Of a DNA stretch of 15,918 nucleotides, positions 3,344 to 12,802 are shown piece after piece; position 1 is the stretch's first letter, and every line of letters begins with the position of its first letter. Under the pieces are notes generated by a model. That model was given only the letters and a program-made list of their open reading frames with translations, made no database searches and had not been told where the DNA came from. A program made the translations under genes and the position numbers. Source of the stretch: Candidatus Poribacteria bacterium (GTDB taxonomy: Bacteria; Poribacteria; DTPJ01; WJIO01); assembly GCA_014730235.1 (NCBI GenBank), contig WJIO01000308.1, positions 1 through 15,918 of the forward strand. The letters run 5' to 3'.

Positions 3344-5671
3344 CTATTCAACAGGTTCATTACCTTTGATAAAGGCCTCTTTTATTGCATGATTAGATCT
3401 TTCTGATGCCAGAAGTCCTGTATCCGCATCAACTGTCTTGAATACAATTCCTTCTGGCACTGGAAAATCCTTGACGGGGCCATCCACAACCGAATCCATG
3501 AAAAAATACCATATAGGTAGCGCACCCAAAGCACCGGTGTGCCGACAGCTTTTGCCGAATTCATCGAAGCCTACCCATACACCGGTTACTAGATCAGGAA
3601 CATATCCAACGAACCAGGCATCGGTTTCGTCATTTGTTGTTCCGGTTTTTCCGGCAGCCGGTCTCTCAAAACCAAATCTTCTTACGTTTCTGCCCGTGCC
3701 CTCTTCAACAACCCCCTGCATGAGATAGGCCATCTGATAGGAAACTTCTTTGCTCAATACGCGTCGGACCGGGGGCGTGTTTTCTTCAAGAATACTGTCC
3801 TCCATATCCAGAACATATTTTATACATATAGGCTTAGCCCTTATTCCCTGATTAGCCCAGACACCATAGGCTGATGTAATCTCCAGCAAGCTCACAGCAG
3901 AAGCACCCAGGGCCAGGGATGGGACAGGATCTAACGGGCTTGTGATTCCCATTGAGTTTGCGAGGGCGATTACTCTTTCGGGCCCTACCTGCTCGTTGAA
4001 AAATCTTGCTGTTGCAACGTTTATGGATTTTGTAAGCATCTTGCGTATGGTAACCTGGCCATAAAAAGTCTTGTAGAAATTCTGGGGTCTCCAGAAACCT
4101 CCGGGGACGCTAATACCCCAAGGTTCGTCCACAACTATAGTCGTCGGTTTGGCCAGTCCATTTGCCAGGGCGGCACAGTAAATGAAGGGTTTAAAAGCCG
4201 AACCGGGTTGTCTGTGGGGATGAACTGACCGATTAAATTGGCTGATGTAAAAATCCCGGCCTCCGATCATAGTCCTCACACATCCTGTAGCTGGATCTAT
4301 GGAAATTAAAGCTCCCTGTATATATGTATCAGGTCTTCTGACATCCTTGCGTTCGCCTGAATACCACTTGACTTTGTTTTCATCATAGGGGGAATACCTG
4401 AGGTTTTTGTCCAGTATACCAAGACCTTTTTGCACTGCGCTATTGGCTTTAAGCTGCATGGACATGTCCAGGGTTGTATATACTTTGAGACCGCTTCTGT
4501 AAAGCGCTCCCGGCTCGTATTTTTCCACCAGCTTGTTTCGAACATATTCCAGGAAGTGCATAACTTCCTTATTGGATGTACGTTCCTGAGGTGAAACTGT
4601 CATTAATGGGGATTCGTAGGATTCCTTAAACTCTACTTCGTCTATGAATCCCAGTTTACGCATCTGTCTCAGGACTATCTGTCGCCGCCTGTGGGAACTT
4701 TCCGGGTTTCTGATAGGGGAATACCGGGGGGGATCTTTGGGGATCGCCGCCAGGGTTGCGGCTTCATGTATACTAAGTTCCGATAAATCCTTATTGAAGT
4801 AATATTGGGCGGCTTCAGCCACGCCGTAAATCTCTCTTGCGCCGTATCTTCCAAGGTTGACCCTGTTCAGGTATCTTTCAAGGATTTCATCCTTTGTATA
4901 AACACTTTCGATTTTTATGGCCAGAAGTCCCTCTTTGATCTTCCTAACCAGAATTTGATGCCTGGTCAGAAACAGGTCTTTTGCAAGTTGCTGGGTTATG
5001 GTGCTGGCCCCCTGGAATCTATGGTATTTCCAGCTATATTTTATATTCCACCACATTGAGCCAACAATTCGGTATAAATCAAATCCCCAATGGTCATAGA
5101 AGCGTTTGTCCTCAATGGCCAGGAATGCGTTAATAACGTTGTCGGGTATTTCCGAAAGGCTTGCCAGTTCCCGATCAGTGCCCTCGCTTCCATAGAATTC
5201 AGCTATTACCTCCGGTTCAAGGATGAATTCGTTAATAAATTCCTGCTCTGATTCCATCATACGAGTGATTTTACCATCAGTAACCTGAATATTAATAATG
5301 CGTTCCGCTATTCTCATCCTCGGGTAATTCACTTCTCTTAGATATAATACCATCTCATTATTAGGGCTTTTTTCATCTTGCTTAAGGTGATACTGACCGG
5401 GGTTTTCTGGAATATAATTTGTCTGTATATATTCAAGCCGCTCAAGTCTTCTAAGTAAGTTGCTAAAGGTAGTCTTCGTTCTTACGCGAAAAAAGTCAGA
5501 ATAGACTTTGGTGGGATAATGCCACGCCTGAGTTTCATATTCCAAAGGTTCAAGGGAAGGTAGATCATCCCAATACGCTATGATCATACCCACAGGTATA
5601 CCAGCACATATAAAAAATATAACCATGAAAACCAGCAAAAGAATCCGCAATATTTTTTTCAATATTTTCAT
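3344..5671 (-). CDS. Bifunctional class A penicillin-binding protein, PBP1B-like with UB2H-type domain
   Basis: A 775-residue peptidoglycan synthase anchored by an N-terminal membrane segment (about residues 7-32). Residues 55-138 (PTKVYSDFF...LRRLERLEYI...PGQYHL...MVLYLREVNYP) match the UB2H domain of PBP1B rather than PBP1A. The glycosyltransferase (GT51) domain follows, with catalytic EDKRF at 187-191 and QGASTITQQLAKDLFL at 220-235. The transpeptidase domain carries SAFK (491-494, acyl-enzyme Ser491), SIN (549-551) and KTGT (675-678). All catalytic residues are present, so it should polymerise and cross-link peptidoglycan outside the inner membrane. It is the first gene of a minus-strand operon, with AGGAGAAA before ATG 5671 and a strong promoter just upstream. 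In E. coli UB2H binds the outer-membrane activator LpoB, but no LpoB-like gene is seen here. Confidence 0.95.
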   Translation of the reverse strand: MKILKKILRILLLVFMVIFFICAGIPVGMIIAYWDDLPSLEPLEYETQAWHYPTKVYSDFFRVRTKTTFSNLLRRLERLEYIQTNYIPENPGQYHLKQDEKSPNNEMVLYLREVNYPRMRIAERIINIQVTDGKITRMMESEQEFINEFILEPEVIAEFYGSEGTDRELASLSEIPDNVINAFLAIEDKRFYDHWGFDLYRIVGSMWWNIKYSWKYHRFQGASTITQQLAKDLFLTRHQILVRKIKEGLLAIKIESVYTKDEILERYLNRVNLGRYGAREIYGVAEAAQYYFNKDLSELSIHEAATLAAIPKDPPRYSPIRNPESSHRRRQIVLRQMRKLGFIDEVEFKESYESPLMTVSPQERTSNKEVMHFLEYVRNKLVEKYEPGALYRSGLKVYTTLDMSMQLKANSAVQKGLGILDKNLRYSPYDENKVKWYSGERKDVRRPDTYIQGALISIDPATGCVRTMIGGRDFYISQFNRSVHPHRQPGSAFKPFIYCAALANGLAKPTTIVVDEPWGISVPGGFWRPQNFYKTFYGQVTIRKMLTKSINVATARFFNEQVGPERVIALANSMGITSPLDPVPSLALGASAVSLLEITSAYGVWANQGIRAKPICIKYVLDMEDSILEENTPPVRRVLSKEVSYQMAYLMQGVVEEGTGRNVRRFGFERPAAGKTGTTNDETDAWFVGYVPDLVTGVWVGFDEFGKSCRHTGALGALPIWYFFMDSVVDGPVKDFPVPEGIVFKTVDADTGLLASERSNHAIKEAFIKGNEPVE

Positions 5672-5691: not shown

Positions 5692-5720
5692 ATTATAGCG
5701 TCCCAGGCAATAATGGTCAA
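5692..5720 (-). promoter_or_regulatory. Sigma70-type promoter of the PBP operon
   Basis: Reading the minus strand, TTGACC (5715-5720), a 17-bp spacer and a perfect TATAAT (5692-5697) lie just before the PBP ribosome site AGGAG (5681-5685). This places the transcript start only about 15 bases from the ATG, so the leader is very short. It is the only strong promoter seen for the four-gene operon ending at 560. Confidence 0.8.
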
Positions 5721-5775: not shown

Positions 5776-5793
5776 ATTATTCAAATGAATAAT
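5776..5793. promoter_or_regulatory. Perfect dyad, possible regulator site 1
   Basis: ATTATTCA-AA-TGAATAAT is a perfect 8-bp inverted repeat in the 405-bp divergent region 5672-6076, about 150 bp upstream of the -24 element at 5942. I see no gene in this region; the short plus-strand frame at 5686-5880 has no coding features and overlaps the PBP promoter. Confidence 0.45.
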
Positions 5794-5800
5794 ACATTTT

Positions 5801-5823
5801 GTCGTTGTTTGTCATACAACGAC
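5801..5823. promoter_or_regulatory. Perfect dyad, possible regulator/enhancer site 2
   Basis: GTCGTTGT-N7-ACAACGAC is a perfect 8-bp inverted repeat with a 7-bp centre, 7 bp from the first dyad. It lies about 120 bp upstream of the -24/-12 promoter-like site at 5942-5957, the usual place for an upstream activating sequence bound by a sigma54 enhancer-binding protein. No such regulator is encoded in the window. It is also roughly 80 bp upstream of the divergent PBP promoter and could serve that instead. Confidence 0.5.
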
Positions 5824-5941
5824 GTTATGTGTTACCCAACGGTAATTCAAAGCTCTGTTTGTCTTTTATTACCTGGTTAAAAAACCTCATAGAAGGCATA
5901 GTGTAAGCTTATAAGGATACTAACTCGATTTTATATCATTA

Positions 5942-5957
5942 TGGCATGTTTGTTGCA
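5942..5957 (+). promoter_or_regulatory. Putative sigma54 (-24/-12) promoter of the rubrerythrin operon
   Basis: TGGCAT-GTTTG-TTGCA matches the sigma54 consensus TGGCAC-N5-TTGCA with one difference, and keeps the invariant GG-N10-GC spacing. A transcript would start near 5968-5970, leaving a leader of about 108 nt before the rubrerythrin ATG. No well-spaced sigma70 -35/-10 pair was found nearer the gene; TTGACG at about 6020 lacks a proper -10. Confidence 0.55.
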
Positions 5958-6076
5958 CTTTATATTTTGAAATTCCTCTGAATAATTCCAAATAAAAACA
6001 AAAGGTTTTTCGATTGTATTGACGTTATGTTGTTGCAAAAAACTTCGAAACTATAGAAACGAGGAGAAATATAAAA

Positions 6077-6625
6077 ATGCGAGACATGGTAGCAGCAGAT
6101 CTTAGATCTGCTTTCGGAGGAGAAAGTCAAGCTCATATGCGATATGTGATATATGCGCAAAAAGCAAAGGATGAAGGATTTGACAATATTTCCCGGTTGT
6201 TTACTGCCATAGCTGATGCTGAGCGAATACACTCTACAAATCACTTCAGTACAATGGCTGACGTAGGTGGAGCATTTTTGGTTGCAAGCATTGCTGGTTT
6301 TGGATTGGGAAGCACCTCTGAAAATCTGGACGTAGCTATAGAAGGTGAAACCTTTGAGATAAACGAAATGTATCCGGCATATAGAGCCGTAGCTAAAGCT
6401 CAAGGGGAAGACGAAGCTGAAAAAAGCTTTAAATGGGCTTATATGGCAGAGAAAACCCATGCTGTGTTTTTCAAAAAAGCCAAGAAGGCTTCGGAAAAAG
6501 GGAAAGATGTAGAACTTGGTGTTATGTGGATATGTCAAACCTGCGGACACACCGTCGAAGGAGAACCACCTGATCAGTGTCCCGTATGCCAGGAGCCCAA
6601 AGAAGTTTTTAATTCATTTGAATAA
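6077..6625 (+). CDS. rbr: Rubrerythrin
   Basis: A 182-residue cytoplasmic peroxide-reducing non-haem iron protein. The N-terminal four-helix domain carries the diiron ligands Glu16 (GGES), Glu49 and His52 (DAERIH), Glu94 and Glu97 (EINEMY), and Glu125 and His128 (AEKTH). The C-terminal rubredoxin-like domain has Cys153-x2-Cys156-x11-Cys168-x2-Cys171 for the electron-transfer iron. Family members reduce hydrogen peroxide with electrons from NADH-linked reductase/rubredoxin, protecting anaerobes from oxygen stress. The ATG at 6077 follows GAGGAG by 10 bases. It is the first gene of a plus-strand set with an aldo/keto reductase 33 bp downstream. A sigma54-like promoter and two dyads lie upstream. 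Confidence 0.96.
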   Translation: MRDMVAADLRSAFGGESQAHMRYVIYAQKAKDEGFDNISRLFTAIADAERIHSTNHFSTMADVGGAFLVASIAGFGLGSTSENLDVAIEGETFEINEMYPAYRAVAKAQGEDEAEKSFKWAYMAEKTHAVFFKKAKKASEKGKDVELGVMWICQTCGHTVEGEPPDQCPVCQEPKEVFNSFE

Positions 6626-6658: not shown

Positions 6659-7660
6659 ATGGAATATAGAAGATTAGGACGTACAGGAGTAAAGGTAAGT
6701 AAATTTTGTCTGGGATGTATGACTTTTGGTGGGCGCACTGAAGAAAAAGATGCAATGGATATTATAGACCGGGCTATTGATGGAGGTATAAATTTTCTGG
6801 ATACAGCGAATGTTTACAATCGTGGTCTAAGTGAACAAGCGGTTGGTAAAGCACTCAAAAGAAATTGCAAACGGGATCGCATTGTGCTGGCGACAAAGGT
6901 ACATGGAACAATGGACGATGATGACCCAAATGGCGAAGGAAATCACCGCCGCCATATTATACAACAATGTGAGGCGTCCCTGAAACGCCTGCAAACGGAA
7001 CATATTGACCTGTATCAAATACATCGCCCTGATTCGGAAATACCAATTGATGAGACGCTTCGCGCTCTGGATGATCTGATACGCGCAGGTAAAGTTCGCT
7101 ACATCGGTACCAGCACTTTTGCGGCATGGCAGGTTATGGAATCCCTTTGGATTTCAAAGGAACTGGGGCTTAATCGTTTTATTTGTGAACAGCCGCCCTA
7201 TCATCCCCTGGATCGACGTATTGAGAGGGAGTTAATTCCTATGGCCAAAACGTATGGCATAGGCTTGATACCCTGGTCACCCCTCGCTGGTGGATTTTTT
7301 ACCGGCAAGTATAGCCGCGATGAGGAACCGTCTGAGGGAACAAGATTTCATAACAGCGGCGGCAGAGAGGGCCTTTTCAGTGATGAAGCTTTTGATGTCC
7401 TAGATGTTATTGAAGAAATCGCCAAGGATAAAGGATGCACTCCAAGTCAATTGGCTTTAGCCTGGTGCGCCCATCAATCGGGAATTACCAGTCCAATAAC
7501 AGGGCCGCGCACTATGGAACAGTTAGAGGACAATTTAGGGGCTGCTGACGTGGAAATTACTGAGGAAGATTGTGACAAAATTGATGAGGTATCACCATCC
7601 GGTCACGTTATAGCGCCTTTCTACAAAGCTGATTTTGGACCACATGAATTTGGATGGTAA
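6659..7660 (+). CDS. Aldo/keto reductase
   Basis: A 333-residue TIM-barrel NADPH-dependent oxidoreductase. The catalytic tetrad is visible as Asp48 (NFLDTA), Tyr53 (NVYNRG), Lys80 (VLATKVHG) and His122 (YQIHRPD). The GKVRYIGTS strand (144-152) and IPWSPLAGG (204-212) are further family landmarks, and the C-terminal region 260-310 fits the nucleotide-binding part. It is closest in style to the Tas/YajO-type subgroup that reduces aldehydes and ketones, and the substrate is unknown. ATG at 6659 is preceded by AAAGGAA with 8 bases between. Its place behind rubrerythrin suggests a role in clearing reactive carbonyls formed during oxidative stress, which is inference from context. Confidence 0.94.
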   Translation: MEYRRLGRTGVKVSKFCLGCMTFGGRTEEKDAMDIIDRAIDGGINFLDTANVYNRGLSEQAVGKALKRNCKRDRIVLATKVHGTMDDDDPNGEGNHRRHIIQQCEASLKRLQTEHIDLYQIHRPDSEIPIDETLRALDDLIRAGKVRYIGTSTFAAWQVMESLWISKELGLNRFICEQPPYHPLDRRIERELIPMAKTYGIGLIPWSPLAGGFFTGKYSRDEEPSEGTRFHNSGGREGLFSDEAFDVLDVIEEIAKDKGCTPSQLALAWCAHQSGITSPITGPRTMEQLEDNLGAADVEITEEDCDKIDEVSPSGHVIAPFYKADFGPHEFGW

Positions 7661-7661
7661 A

Positions 7662-8357
7662 ATGAGTATGAAACAGGAAATGGCTAAAGTCTTTGATTTA
7701 CCCAGGATGCGAGACAAGATCAGGGTTTTTCGCGATCGGAATGATGCCGGTAAGGTGCTGGCTGGCATGATGGAATCATATCGCCGTAGTAATTCCATTG
7801 TGCTGGCTATTCCTGCTGGTGGAGTACCAGTGGCGTCAGTTATAGCGGGAAAGTTGAATCTGGTGTTAGATTTGGCCGTGACCAGTAAAATCATCTTGCC
7901 CTGGAATTCTGAGGTTGGTTACGGCGCGGTGACCTTTGATGGGACTGTTAAATTGAACGAGGAATTAATATCCAATTTAAAACTTACTCCCCAGACTGTT
8001 GAAGAAGGAATTAAGAATACCCAGGAGAAGGTGCAAAGACGGATTGATAATCTGCGGGGTGATCTTCCGATTCCGGCAATATCCAAACATACGGTAATAT
8101 TGGTGGACGATGGGCTTGCATCCGGATTCACCATGAAGACCGCGGTAGAAGCTGTTCGCAAGCTGGAAGCTGAAAGGATAGTTGTAGCTGTACCAACTGC
8201 ACATTATGAATCCATGCAATCTTTAATCCAGAAAGTGAACGAGGTCTATTGTCCCAACATACGAAAAGGCTGGAGATATGCTGTGGCTGATGCTTATAAG
8301 TACTGGTCAGACATAGAGGAAAAAGAATTAGAGATGATGCTGGATAAAGTTATGTAA
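7662..8357 (+). CDS. Phosphoribosyltransferase-fold protein (COG1926 type)
   Basis: About 231 residues from the ATG at 7662. Landmarks are FRDRNDAGKVLA near 23-34, the substrate-loop motif AIPAGGVPVA near 49-58, and the type I PRPP-binding signature VILVDDGLASGFTM at 135-148. Proteins of this kind are often annotated only as 'phosphoribosyltransferase' and their substrate is generally not established. The frame is open upstream to TTG 7635 and ATG 7644, which overlap the aldo/keto reductase, and ATG 7668 and 7680 are also possible. I chose 7662 because it lies one base past that gene's TAA, typical of translational coupling, but no strong ribosome site separates the choices. It converges with the dehydrogenase gene, whose stop is 11 bp away. 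Confidence 0.88.
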   Translation: MSMKQEMAKVFDLPRMRDKIRVFRDRNDAGKVLAGMMESYRRSNSIVLAIPAGGVPVASVIAGKLNLVLDLAVTSKIILPWNSEVGYGAVTFDGTVKLNEELISNLKLTPQTVEEGIKNTQEKVQRRIDNLRGDLPIPAISKHTVILVDDGLASGFTMKTAVEAVRKLEAERIVVAVPTAHYESMQSLIQKVNEVYCPNIRKGWRYAVADAYKYWSDIEEKELEMMLDKVM

Positions 8358-8368
8358 AGCCCCTCCGG

Positions 8369-9388
8369 TTAAGATGAAGAATCAGCCATAGTAAGAACAA
8401 CAGCTCCCTCAACCTTTCCCTGACGTAAATAATCGAGGGCTTCGTTAGCCTGTTTAAGGGGAAAGGTTTGCACCTCTGTTTTTACAGGGACTTTCGGTGC
8501 GATCTCCATTAATCCATCCCCATCCTGCCGTGTAAGGTTTGTTACTGATCGAATGACTCTTTCCTCCCACAATATATTATAAGGAAAAGAAGGTATATCG
8601 CTCATATGTATGCCTCCACAGACGACGCTTCCGCCTTTATCAATTGCTTTCAATGCTGCCGGAACCAGAGAACCCACAGGCGCAAAGATAATTGCTGCAT
8701 CCAGCTTTTCCGGCGGCGGTTCCGTTGATGAGCCTGCCCAGACCGCGCCAAGGCTACAGGCAAATTCCTGGGCCTTTGTGTCATCGGGTCTTGTAAATGC
8801 GTAAATCTGTTTATCTTCATATATTGCTATCTGGGCGATAATATGTGCTGCTGCTCCAAAACCATAGATGCCAATACGATTCATATCTTTCTTAACCATG
8901 CGATACGATCTATATCCTATTAGTCCCGCGCACAGCAACGGCGCGGCTTCAACATCCTCGTAGCTGTCATGTATTTTGAAGCAGTATCGGTGGTCGGCGA
9001 TGGTATATTCGGCATAACCACCGTCAATTGTGTATCCAGTAAAGAGGGCATTATCACATAAGTTTTCCTGATCTCTCAAACAAAAACGACAATCTCCATC
9101 TGTATAACCCAGCCAGGGAACGCCAACCCTTTCTCCCACACTAAAATTTTTAACGTTATCACCCACCTTAACCACTTTACCAACTATTTCATGACCGGGT
9201 ATAAGGGGTAATTTAGGTTCGGAGAGTTCACCATCAACTATATGTAAATCCGTACGGCATACACCGCAGGCATTGACTCGTATTAATATTTGCTCGGGAT
9301 TTGGTTCTGGAACAGGAACTTTCTTGACAATCAAGGGCTTTTCCTGTTCTTCCAGTACCATTGCCAGCATTTTTTCCGGGATCTGCAA
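8369..9388 (-). CDS. Zinc-dependent alcohol dehydrogenase (MDR family)
   Basis: A 339-residue medium-chain dehydrogenase. The catalytic zinc ligands are Cys44 (GVCRTDLH), His66-Glu67 (PGHEIVG) and Cys153. The Rossmann loop is GFGAAAH (176-182), followed by YAFTR, a form common in YahK/AdhA-like relatives. The structural zinc lobe reads Asp97-x2-Cys100-x2-Cys103-x7-Cys111: the first of the usual four cysteines is an aspartate. An acidic residue at this place is known in Sulfolobus solfataricus ADH (Glu), so the site may still bind zinc. It oxidises alcohols or reduces aldehydes with NAD(P); the substrate is unknown. TTG at 9388 is preferred to ATG 9370 because AAGGAA lies 9 bases before it. 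A palindromic repeat ends 19 bp upstream of the start, so any promoter of its own would have to be in or beyond the repeat. Confidence 0.93.
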   Translation of the reverse strand: MQIPEKMLAMVLEEQEKPLIVKKVPVPEPNPEQILIRVNACGVCRTDLHIVDGELSEPKLPLIPGHEIVGKVVKVGDNVKNFSVGERVGVPWLGYTDGDCRFCLRDQENLCDNALFTGYTIDGGYAEYTIADHRYCFKIHDSYEDVEAAPLLCAGLIGYRSYRMVKKDMNRIGIYGFGAAAHIIAQIAIYEDKQIYAFTRPDDTKAQEFACSLGAVWAGSSTEPPPEKLDAAIIFAPVGSLVPAALKAIDKGGSVVCGGIHMSDIPSFPYNILWEERVIRSVTNLTRQDGDGLMEIAPKVPVKTEVQTFPLKQANEALDYLRQGKVEGAVVLTMADSSS

Positions 9389-9548: not shown

Positions 9549-12500
9549 TTATGAGGATGTATTTTGATCTGACAGTTGCTTTCGGATTGATTTAACCAGA
9601 TTTTTCATTCCTACTGGCTTGCTGATATAGTCGTTAGCACCTGCTTCAAGGCATTTTGCTCGGTCACCGGGCATGGCGAGGGCTGTGAGGGCGATGATGG
9701 GTGTGTCGTTTATATGAGGGTCTTCACGAATGATTCGGATGGCCTCTAAACCATCCATACCGGGCATCTGGATGTCCATCAGGATCAGATCGGGTTTTTT
9801 TTCCCTGACCAACTGGATAGCCTCTTTGCCATCTGTTGCGATAATAATCTGAGCGTCGCTGGCCGAAAGATAGGCTGAAATAGACTTGATGCTTATCTCG
9901 TTGTCCTCCACAAGTAGGATAGCCGGCGGTTTACCGGTTGGATTGGAAATTTTCATGAGCGAAGCTAAGTTGGCGGTTGCAGGTTCTGAGGTATCTGATT
10001 TAGTCTCATCAGGTTCTATATTCTGAATTGCTGTTCTCCAGGGCAGTGAGAAGCTAAAACGCGAGCCTTTAGCCTTTTTGCTTTCAACTGAGATGGACCC
10101 GTTGTGCATATGAACTAACTGCTTAACCAGAGCCAGACCCAGGCCCGTTCCTCTATGTCTGCGAGATAGCTTGCTGTCCAGTTGGACGAACGGTTCAAAA
10201 AGTTTTGGTATCTGGTCTTCCGGTATACCTATACCTGTATCCCATACTGTGAAGTCCACTTTCTCCCCTTCACTATCTCCGACTACCTCAAGGCCCACAG
10301 AACCACCTTCGGGGGTGAACTTGACTGCATTGCTCAGAAGGTTTACGAGTATTTGTTTCAGCCGACGCTCATCAGCCAGTATAAAAGTAACAGTGCTGTC
10401 AAAGCTGGATGATAACTTTAGCTTTTTCATCCGGGCGTCACGTTCCACAAAGCGAAGACTGGCTTTGCAGACCTGCTTTACGGGGATATGCTTCAGTTCC
10501 AGATTCACTTGACCTACCTCGATCTTCGAGACGTCCAGTATATCGTTGATCAAACTCAGGAGATGCTGTCCGCTTTCCTCAATGGCAGTCACAGAGTCTG
10601 TCTGTTCCTCGTTGAGCTGTCCGTAGACACTGAATTTCAGGACTTCTGCCATGCCCAGTATGCCGCTTATAGGTGTGCGCAGTTCGTGGCTCATGGCGGC
10701 GAGGAATTCATCCTTCATGCGATCTGCCTTGGCAAGATCCATGTTGACTTCACGCAGTTTGGAAGTCTGATGCTGGACGCGCTGGGCAAGTGACTTCCTT
10801 TCTTCTGCCAGTTCATCCTCCATCTGTTTTCGTTCGATTATACCAGCAAGTATTTTAGCGATGGATTCCAGGAACTCCTCCTCTTTTTTATTATACTTTT
10901 GACCATCTTTCAGGTTCAGTTTCATCACCCCGATTACCCTATCATATGATATTATTGGGACGACGTAAAATCCATGGGATTTAAAATTTTCGTATTTGAT
11001 TTCGTGGAGGTTTTCTGTGCCGTCTGAGAACAGTGTTTTTTGCTCTAAGGCTGCTCGTCCGCAGACACATTTGCCAAAGGGTATGCGCTTGCATGTCTGC
11101 TGATGTTTTTCCGAGATGCCGCTGTGGGCTGTCAGAACAAGATTATCCGAGTCCTCTTCCGTCAGGAATATAACGGCTTGCGGCTTTGAAGATAGCCAGG
11201 GGGTGGAAAAGATAATATCCAGAGCGTGGTTGAGTATATCTTCCAGTGAGGTATCCTTCAGGGACATCTCCATGAGTGAGTTTACTGCCTTCTGTATGTC
11301 ATAGCTTCTCTGGAGCTTTTTGTTGACTTCCGCCAGATCGGATGTCCTCTCGTCCACCATACCCACCAGATGGTTGCGGTCTTTTTGTAATTCGCTCATC
11401 GCGAGCTTCTGCTGTGTGATATTCTTAAATATAGCTTCAAACGTAAGAATATTTCCGTCTTCACCTCTATCCACTGCAACGCTGGATATTAAATAGACCG
11501 GTGATCCGTCTTTCTTTTTGGCTTTTACTTCATAGTTCTCATATAAGTCTTTATTCGCTAGTATCTCAAGGATCGATTGCAGGTCTGCTGGATTTATATA
11601 TAATTCTTCGACACTCTTTCCCACCAGTTTTTCCGCTTTTTCGTAACCCAGTATCTTTGTACCTGCCGGATTTATGGACTTTATTATACCGACATTACTG
11701 ATGGTTATCACCCCATCGGGTGTTAGCTTGAACAGGTGTGTATATTTTCTCTCAAGATCATCCAGCTTTTCTTCTGCGAGTCTGAATTCAGTCAAGTTTA
11801 TGGCTATGGTTGTTAGGCCTGTAATATTTCCTGATGCATCTCTAAGCGGCTCGATAGTAACATCATAAATCTCAGTTCCAGTAGTCAGATCGAACTGTTG
11901 TTCGAATTTTTCACCAATCCCGGTTTCCAGAACTCTCTGATAGATTAACAGCATCTTTTCCCCGACGGGACCGGGTATTATTTCATCAATTCGCTTGCCC
12001 AGGGTTTTCTCAGGTACAAAGTCGGGATGGGTATTATAAACCCAGGTGTATTTTAGATCGGTATCCATATAGCTTGCGGTTATTGAGGCATTTTCCAGCA
12101 CTGCATGCAGGCGTTTATCACTCTCCTGATGCGCATTCTGCGCGTGTCTTCGAGTGGTTATGTTGGTTAGGACTGTTCTGTATTGGTTATGGCCTTCGTC
12201 ATTGTTCTCTATGACGATGCTTTCCAGTTGCGCATAAAACTCAGTATTATTGTTTCTCACCAATCTCAACTCACAAGTTTGCGGGTCTTCCTCTGCGAAA
12301 ACATCCTTGCGATGCTGATAAAACTTATCATGGTCATGCTTGGTGACGAAACTGGAGAATGGCTTACCGATCAGAAAACTTTTCTCAAGTCCAAGCATTT
12401 TAACGCTGGTGAGATTAGCTTTTTGAATTATACCCTCCTCGCTGACTATAAGATATCCAACCGGGGCGAAATCATAGAGATCATAATACTTACGCCGGGA

Positions 12501-12710
12501 CTGGTCAAGTTCCTGTTGGACGCGGCGAAGCTCCTCGTTCTGCATCTCCAGCTCAATCTGGTGTACCTGCAGTTCATGGATAAGATCGAGCATGTCCTCA
12601 GATGACATTTCATCCAGATTTTTATTTAGACGTAGATGTCCCATTTTTTTCTCGGCTTTTTGGCGAAGCTTAGAATAATTATCCGGATTGCCTTTATCAT
12701 CTTTTTTCAT
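9549..12710 (-). CDS. Soluble hybrid sensor histidine kinase (PAS-PAS-PAS-GAF-HisKA-HATPase-REC)
   Basis: About 1053 residues with no membrane segment, so a cytoplasmic sensor. After a coiled coil (about 35-75) come three PAS domains (about 73-190, 196-310, 318-435), a coiled coil, a GAF domain (about 480-627) with the cysteine-rich stretch Cys540...Cys548-Val-Cys550, another coiled coil, HisKA with phosphoacceptor His675 (SHELRTP), HATPase with N box Asn794, G1 DTGIG (824-828) and G2 GTGLGLA (854-860), and a C-terminal receiver with Glu935/Asp936, phosphoacceptor Asp979, Thr1009 and Lys1031. No HPt or output domain is attached. ATG 12710 is chosen over the longer frame to 12800 because AAGGA lies 9-10 bases upstream and the extra residues are not domain-like. 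It has repeats on both sides and no cognate regulator beside it. The ligand is unknown. Confidence 0.94.
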   Translation of the reverse strand: MKKDDKGNPDNYSKLRQKAEKKMGHLRLNKNLDEMSSEDMLDLIHELQVHQIELEMQNEELRRVQQELDQSRRKYYDLYDFAPVGYLIVSEEGIIQKANLTSVKMLGLEKSFLIGKPFSSFVTKHDHDKFYQHRKDVFAEEDPQTCELRLVRNNNTEFYAQLESIVIENNDEGHNQYRTVLTNITTRRHAQNAHQESDKRLHAVLENASITASYMDTDLKYTWVYNTHPDFVPEKTLGKRIDEIIPGPVGEKMLLIYQRVLETGIGEKFEQQFDLTTGTEIYDVTIEPLRDASGNITGLTTIAINLTEFRLAEEKLDDLERKYTHLFKLTPDGVITISNVGIIKSINPAGTKILGYEKAEKLVGKSVEELYINPADLQSILEILANKDLYENYEVKAKKKDGSPVYLISSVAVDRGEDGNILTFEAIFKNITQQKLAMSELQKDRNHLVGMVDERTSDLAEVNKKLQRSYDIQKAVNSLMEMSLKDTSLEDILNHALDIIFSTPWLSSKPQAVIFLTEEDSDNLVLTAHSGISEKHQQTCKRIPFGKCVCGRAALEQKTLFSDGTENLHEIKYENFKSHGFYVVPIISYDRVIGVMKLNLKDGQKYNKKEEEFLESIAKILAGIIERKQMEDELAEERKSLAQRVQHQTSKLREVNMDLAKADRMKDEFLAAMSHELRTPISGILGMAEVLKFSVYGQLNEEQTDSVTAIEESGQHLLSLINDILDVSKIEVGQVNLELKHIPVKQVCKASLRFVERDARMKKLKLSSSFDSTVTFILADERRLKQILVNLLSNAVKFTPEGGSVGLEVVGDSEGEKVDFTVWDTGIGIPEDQIPKLFEPFVQLDSKLSRRHRGTGLGLALVKQLVHMHNGSISVESKKAKGSRFSFSLPWRTAIQNIEPDETKSDTSEPATANLASLMKISNPTGKPPAILLVEDNEISIKSISAYLSASDAQIIIATDGKEAIQLVREKKPDLILMDIQMPGMDGLEAIRIIREDPHINDTPIIALTALAMPGDRAKCLEAGANDYISKPVGMKNLVKSIRKQLSDQNTSS

Positions 12711-12751
12711 GTATGTATATCCTTTTTTGATATTTGAAGCTGATAATTCTA

Positions 12752-12768
12752 AAAAAGCTTTGCTTTTT
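12752..12768 (-). terminator. Weak hairpin with T-run in the histidine kinase leader
   Basis: On the minus strand AAAAAGC-AAA-GCTTTTT followed by one more T lies 42 bases before the kinase ATG. The stem has only two GC pairs, so it would be a weak terminator or attenuator at best. Confidence 0.3.
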
Positions 12769-12802
12769 CCGGATTTAGCGTGAGAATGAAGAAAAATCAC
12801 AA

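Follow-up and report, generated by a model that had tools for sequence, protein, structure and literature searches.

The window, by which we mean the whole stretch of 15,918 nucleotides analyzed here, carries a three-gene operon encoding a rubrerythrin, an aldo/keto reductase, and a phosphoribosyltransferase (PRTase)-like protein (Table 1), the last of which could alternatively start upstream at position 7635. An intergenic gap of 405 bp with a G+C content of 30% lies between the rubrerythrin gene and a divergently oriented PBP1A-family gene, and contains a -24/-12 (sigma54) promoter element, two dyads, and a sigma70-type promoter on the opposite strand. For the convergent alcohol dehydrogenase gene, the nearest genomes showed no close orthologue, so conservation of gene order was uninformative.

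Table 1. Features of the rubrerythrin locus (window coordinates).
Feature	Position	Strand	Remarks
PBP1A-family gene	3344-5671	-	Divergent neighbor
Sigma70-type promoter of the PBP1A-family gene	5692-5720	-	TTGACC-N17-TATAAT, 11/12; divergent
AT-rich dyad	5776-5793	.	ATTATTCA-AA-TGAATAAT; perfect 8-bp arms; may be chance
Perfect dyad	5801-5823	.	GTCGTTGT-TTGTCAT-ACAACGAC (N7); candidate activator site, putative function
-24/-12 (sigma54) promoter	5942-5957	+	TGGCATG-TTTG-TTGCA (TGGCATGTTTGTTGCA); start predicted at ~5968
Ribosome-binding site	6061-6066	+	GAGGAG before the rubrerythrin start; read directly
Rubrerythrin	6077-6625	+	C-terminal rubredoxin-like domain; nearest solved relatives, rubrerythrins 3mps/1nnq
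Aldo/keto reductase	6659-7660	+	Operon gene 2; 33-bp gap after rubrerythrin
PRTase-like protein	7662-8357	+	Operon gene 3; relative of TT1426 (PDB 1wd5)
Zinc alcohol dehydrogenase	8369-9388	-	TIGR02822 (adh_fam_2); convergent, outside the transcript
Large hybrid histidine kinase	9549-12800	-	PAS, GAF, HisKA, HATPase, and receiver domains; near the operon

The -24/-12 Element in Front of the Rubrerythrin Gene

The original prediction of a TGGCAT-N5-TTGCA element with GG-N10-GC spacing was confirmed by reading the letters of the window: the GG at 5943-5944 and the GC at 5955-5956 are exactly 10 nucleotides apart, and the site matches the consensus TGGCAYR-N4-TTGCW with its invariant GG-N10-GC. 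It is located upstream of the gene in the right orientation at a distance of 108 nt. Taking C5956 as -12 places +1 at 5968, which predicts a leader of 109 nt up to the ATG of rubrerythrin. The accompanying claim that no good sigma70 promoter is present holds on the plus strand, where the best sigma70-like sites match at 9/12 positions, which is the noise level (e.g., 5959-5986), but not on the minus strand, where the well-matched promoter of the divergent PBP1A gene is found. A Fur/PerR-box reading of the promoter region was rejected, as the best match to the PerR box TTATAATNATTATAA covers 11/14 positions; no convincing box was found for the window's rubrerythrin gene, and no perR gene is adjacent. 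The two Fur-family genes of the genome are both on contigs other than that of the window.

Genome-Wide Distribution of Sigma54-Type Promoters

The genome assembly (5.53 Mb, 451 contigs, 91.6% complete) contains one rpoN gene (E 1e-60), as a sigma54-dependent operon would demand, and rpoN is present in 38/39 genomes of the phylum set. Our promoter census rests on pattern searches of the genome. The exact pattern TGGCAYNNNNNTTGCW was found 32 times, against 10-15 matches expected from Markov models of order 1-3; a control with the reversed pattern (3 matches) was rejected in favor of these models as too lenient, because the pattern contains CpG. The raw excess is thus only two- to threefold, and this figure, together with the 9/12 sites on the plus strand and the sigma70 promoter of an orthologous gene (L090, described below), is what favors the alternative that a sigma70-type or ECF promoter drives the operon, the -24/-12 match having arisen by chance. 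The context of the sites argues otherwise. Among 30 sites read in context, 25 are noncoding or intergenic and five lie inside long reading frames (L066 was counted as noncoding by manual curation, the real FlgB start being taken downstream of the listed ORF start). Since the noncoding expectation is 2.3 per Mb, or ~2 in all, the 25 noncoding sites represent an approximately tenfold excess. Furthermore, a purine follows TGGCAY, at a consensus position outside the search, in 23/25 noncoding sites versus 1/5 coding sites. In a leave-one-out scoring, the window site reaches 26.1 bits and ranks second of 25 (best, 26.5 bits). We consider a chance match unlikely and, given the high score, the intergenic excess, and the unsearched purine, we regard the window site as very probably a genuine sigma54 promoter.

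Most of the sites face a gene located ~30-200 nt away. The targets of other sites in this genome include groESL, clpB, PRC-barrel genes, an operon of three hsp20 genes, a response regulator gene followed by dnaK, and flgB; the last is a classic sigma54 target and is found among the -24/-12 targets both in this genome and in its relatives. The window promoter appears to be an ordinary but real sigma54 promoter with an unusual target. Two further observations concern individual sites. A strong site of 26.5 bits (L086, on contig C361 of this genome, G000) faces away from an activator gene and points into ~550 bp in which no reading frame is obvious and which may encode a small RNA. Two other promoters, L061 and L067, resemble each other over an unusually long stretch (TTTTTTGACA followed by ACGTTTGGCAYGTTTGTTGC); one precedes a PRC-barrel gene and the other a gene of unknown function.

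The Upstream Dyads

Both perfect dyads of the original prediction are present in the window sequence. The dyad at 5801-5823, with its perfect 8-bp arms, spans -145 to -167 (center, -156) relative to the predicted start. When the 405-bp gap was shuffled with a first-order Markov model, 19% of the shuffles contained at least one perfect dyad with 8-bp arms and 2.1% contained two, while a dyad whose arms each contain four or more G/C appeared in 0.6% (P about 0.006), a somewhat flattering value given that the G/C threshold was picked after the dyad had been seen. On these frequencies, the AT-rich dyad carries no evidential weight, whereas the GC-containing dyad stands out and can fairly be considered a candidate activator site. 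A terminator reading of the 5801-5823 hairpin was rejected, since it is not located at the end of any gene and its T tract is weak, and a direct repeat (GACGTTATGT, at 5821 and 6021) was left as chance.

The expectation that the dyad would recur before other -24/-12 promoters or beside an NtrC-family regulator gene was not borne out by the genome search: no second copy of GTCGTTGT-N7-ACAACGAC exists in the genome with up to two mismatches allowed, and relaxed matching in the retrieved loci gave nothing convincing near sigma54 promoters. Because the dyad is unique, no activator can be assigned to it. It could be that the promoter is real and that the dyads either serve a regulator acting on the divergent PBP1A gene or arose by chance; both lie in the shared divergent gap, the GC-containing one lacks a second genomic copy, and the AT-rich one is unremarkable. 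Against this, the GC-containing dyad is infrequent among the shuffles, its position fits that of activator sites, and its distance from the PBP1A promoter, more than 100 bp on the upstream side, is large for a repressor. We give this alternative somewhat short of an even chance.

Candidate Activators

The genome encodes about 25 sigma54 activators. Judging from domain layouts read by eye, nearly all complete ones begin with a receiver domain; three combine a receiver with a GAF domain, another contains a pair of PAS domains, and two truncated proteins, forming one pair, are RtcR-like. As nearly all complete activators carry a receiver domain, a two-component activator is the likeliest kind, and that of the operon is probably of the response-regulator type, receiving its signal via a two-component system.

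The original prediction had envisaged a dedicated sigma54 activator, for example one sensing redox or nitrosative stress. The dedicated part finds no support in a dyad that is unique in the genome and adjoins no activator gene. Control by a sensor of nitric oxide or redox state resembling NorR might be suggested by the GT-N7-AC within the 5801-5823 dyad, which is the NorR core spacing, and by rubrerythrin being a redox-stress protein. However, there is only one such site, and no activator with the NorR layout (GAF-AAA-HTH) was seen by eye among the complete activators of this 91.6% complete genome, a few activators being truncated. A NorR-like sensor is accordingly improbable, and a dedicated redox activator is a conjecture.

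Rubrerythrin Genes in Related Genomes

The nearest rubrerythrins match at 67% within the same order and at 57-60% beyond it. Among 83 rubrerythrin genes searched with a relaxed pattern over at most 450 bp upstream (less at some loci), only that of the window is preceded by a -24/-12 site, the other 82, those from the nearest genomes among them, having none. In the nearest named relative, a Candidatus Poribacteria MAG (L090), the rubrerythrin gene is instead preceded by a textbook promoter, TTGACA-N17-TATAAT. In genome G016, the rubrerythrin gene lies between a Fur/PerR-type gene and a peroxiredoxin-like gene (assigned by eye), and the second rubrerythrin of the window's own genome (L202, contig C423, 1480-2950) is likewise found behind a Fur/PerR-type gene, with a desulfoferrodoxin-like gene (family assigned by eye) after it. 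As the relatives and the second rubrerythrin are arranged otherwise, the predicted sigma54 arrangement is particular to the window operon. The PRTase of the operon is absent from the other 38 phylum genomes sampled, and, as the operon does not recur in any close relative, there is no phylogenetic footprint, which counts against the sigma54 reading.

A Probable Sigma54 Heat-Shock Module

The dnaK, hsp20, and groESL promoters of this genome (L072, L082, and L087) have in common a TGYCA-N3-TGRCA dyad, which lies upstream of the -24 element at a distance of 89-181 bp. Genomes G001 and G016 retain both promoter and dyad at the response regulator-dnaK operon. A search of 84 phylum genomes for this dyad and a promoter 60-90 bp apart yielded 39 matches in 25 genomes, against none for a reversed control that is itself lenient. 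Of 30 module loci whose targets were assigned by eye from protein starts (among the phylum loci are L191, L172, L219, and L223-L251), 24 precede dnaK (with or without a response regulator), clpB, groES, hsp20, or dnaJ operons. A single-domain response regulator gene with its own sigma54 promoter stands directly before dnaK in several genomes of the phylum, at L191, L172, L072, L228, and L249 (at L249 the gene after the response regulator was not seen). In this genome and its phylum, chaperone genes thus appear to be transcribed from sigma54 promoters that carry another control element, and this module is better supported than the rubrerythrin finding and arguably more interesting.

The occurrence of -24/-12 promoters before dnaK, groESL, hsp20, and clpB in the same genome raises the possibility that the rubrerythrin operon belongs to a sigma54 heat-shock regulon. 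The TGYCA-N3-TGRCA dyad is absent from the window promoter, however: its best score there is -10.4 bits (P 0.89), as opposed to 18 to 22 bits for the dnaK, hsp20, and groESL promoters. The heat-shock dyad reading was rejected on this basis, membership of the operon in such a regulon is highly improbable, and the activator of the operon probably differs from that of the heat-shock genes.

A Model and Its Relation to Known Systems

Taken together, the idea of a sigma54 switch for the operon stands as regards the promoter (rpoN, genome-wide enrichment, and position) and the placement of the dyad, and lacks support as regards the dedicated redox or nitrosative activator. The promoter rests on sequence statistics, and the role of the dyad and the activator are inferred. 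It seems likely, at a confidence only slightly below that for the promoter itself, that a genuine sigma54 promoter drives the operon only upon the action of an upstream AAA+ activator, most likely at the 5801-5823 dyad. In a feasible model, sigma54 would transcribe the three-gene stress operon from ~5968 after an AAA+ enhancer-binding protein, most likely bound at that dyad, has remodeled the closed complex; this activator, probably of the response-regulator type, would relay a signal from a two-component system. If sigma54 control is strictly activator-dependent, rubrerythrin would be made only upon a specific signal.

It is also tempting to speculate that sigma54 is the main stress sigma factor of the phylum, with one activator using TGYCA-N3-TGRCA to drive the chaperone genes and another, belonging to a two-component system, using GTCGTTGT-N7-ACAACGAC to drive the oxidative-stress operon, whose rubrerythrin would have escaped PerR control; this broader scheme is tentative. 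If chaperones are indeed expressed from sigma54 promoters that share a conserved enhancer dyad, the heat-shock circuit would not follow the usual logic of heat-shock sigma factors.

As a rule, rubrerythrin genes are linked to repressors of the PerR type. The C423 rubrerythrin matches such PerR-linked operons, whereas that of the window has a sigma54 promoter instead, with neither an adjacent regulator nor a convincing PerR box. In the literature, as far as it was covered, no precedent was found for rubrerythrin in connection with sigma54 or rpoN, nor, with the same partial coverage, for the TGYCA-N3-TGRCA dyad and its spread in the phylum. In Chlamydia, a tandem sigma66-sigma54 promoter precedes hrcA-grpE-dnaK (PMC8762339). 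Sigma54 control of chaperone genes has been predicted in Planctomycetota and Bacteroidota, where, as in the genome studied here, GroEL/GroES/DnaK/DnaJ/Hsp20 genes have -24/-12 promoters; no upstream dyad is given in the passages covered and Poribacteria are not mentioned, and, compared with the genes described there, the rubrerythrin operon is another kind of target and has a dyad of its own (PMC12316311). The study of the sigma54 regulome of Desulfovibrio vulgaris does not mention rubrerythrin (PMC4641369). The -24/-12 promoters with enhancer-binding proteins mapped in D. vulgaris share their consensus and spacing with the window site, and the candidate dyad upstream and the many response-regulator activators in the genome are likewise features in common with that organism (PMC4641369).
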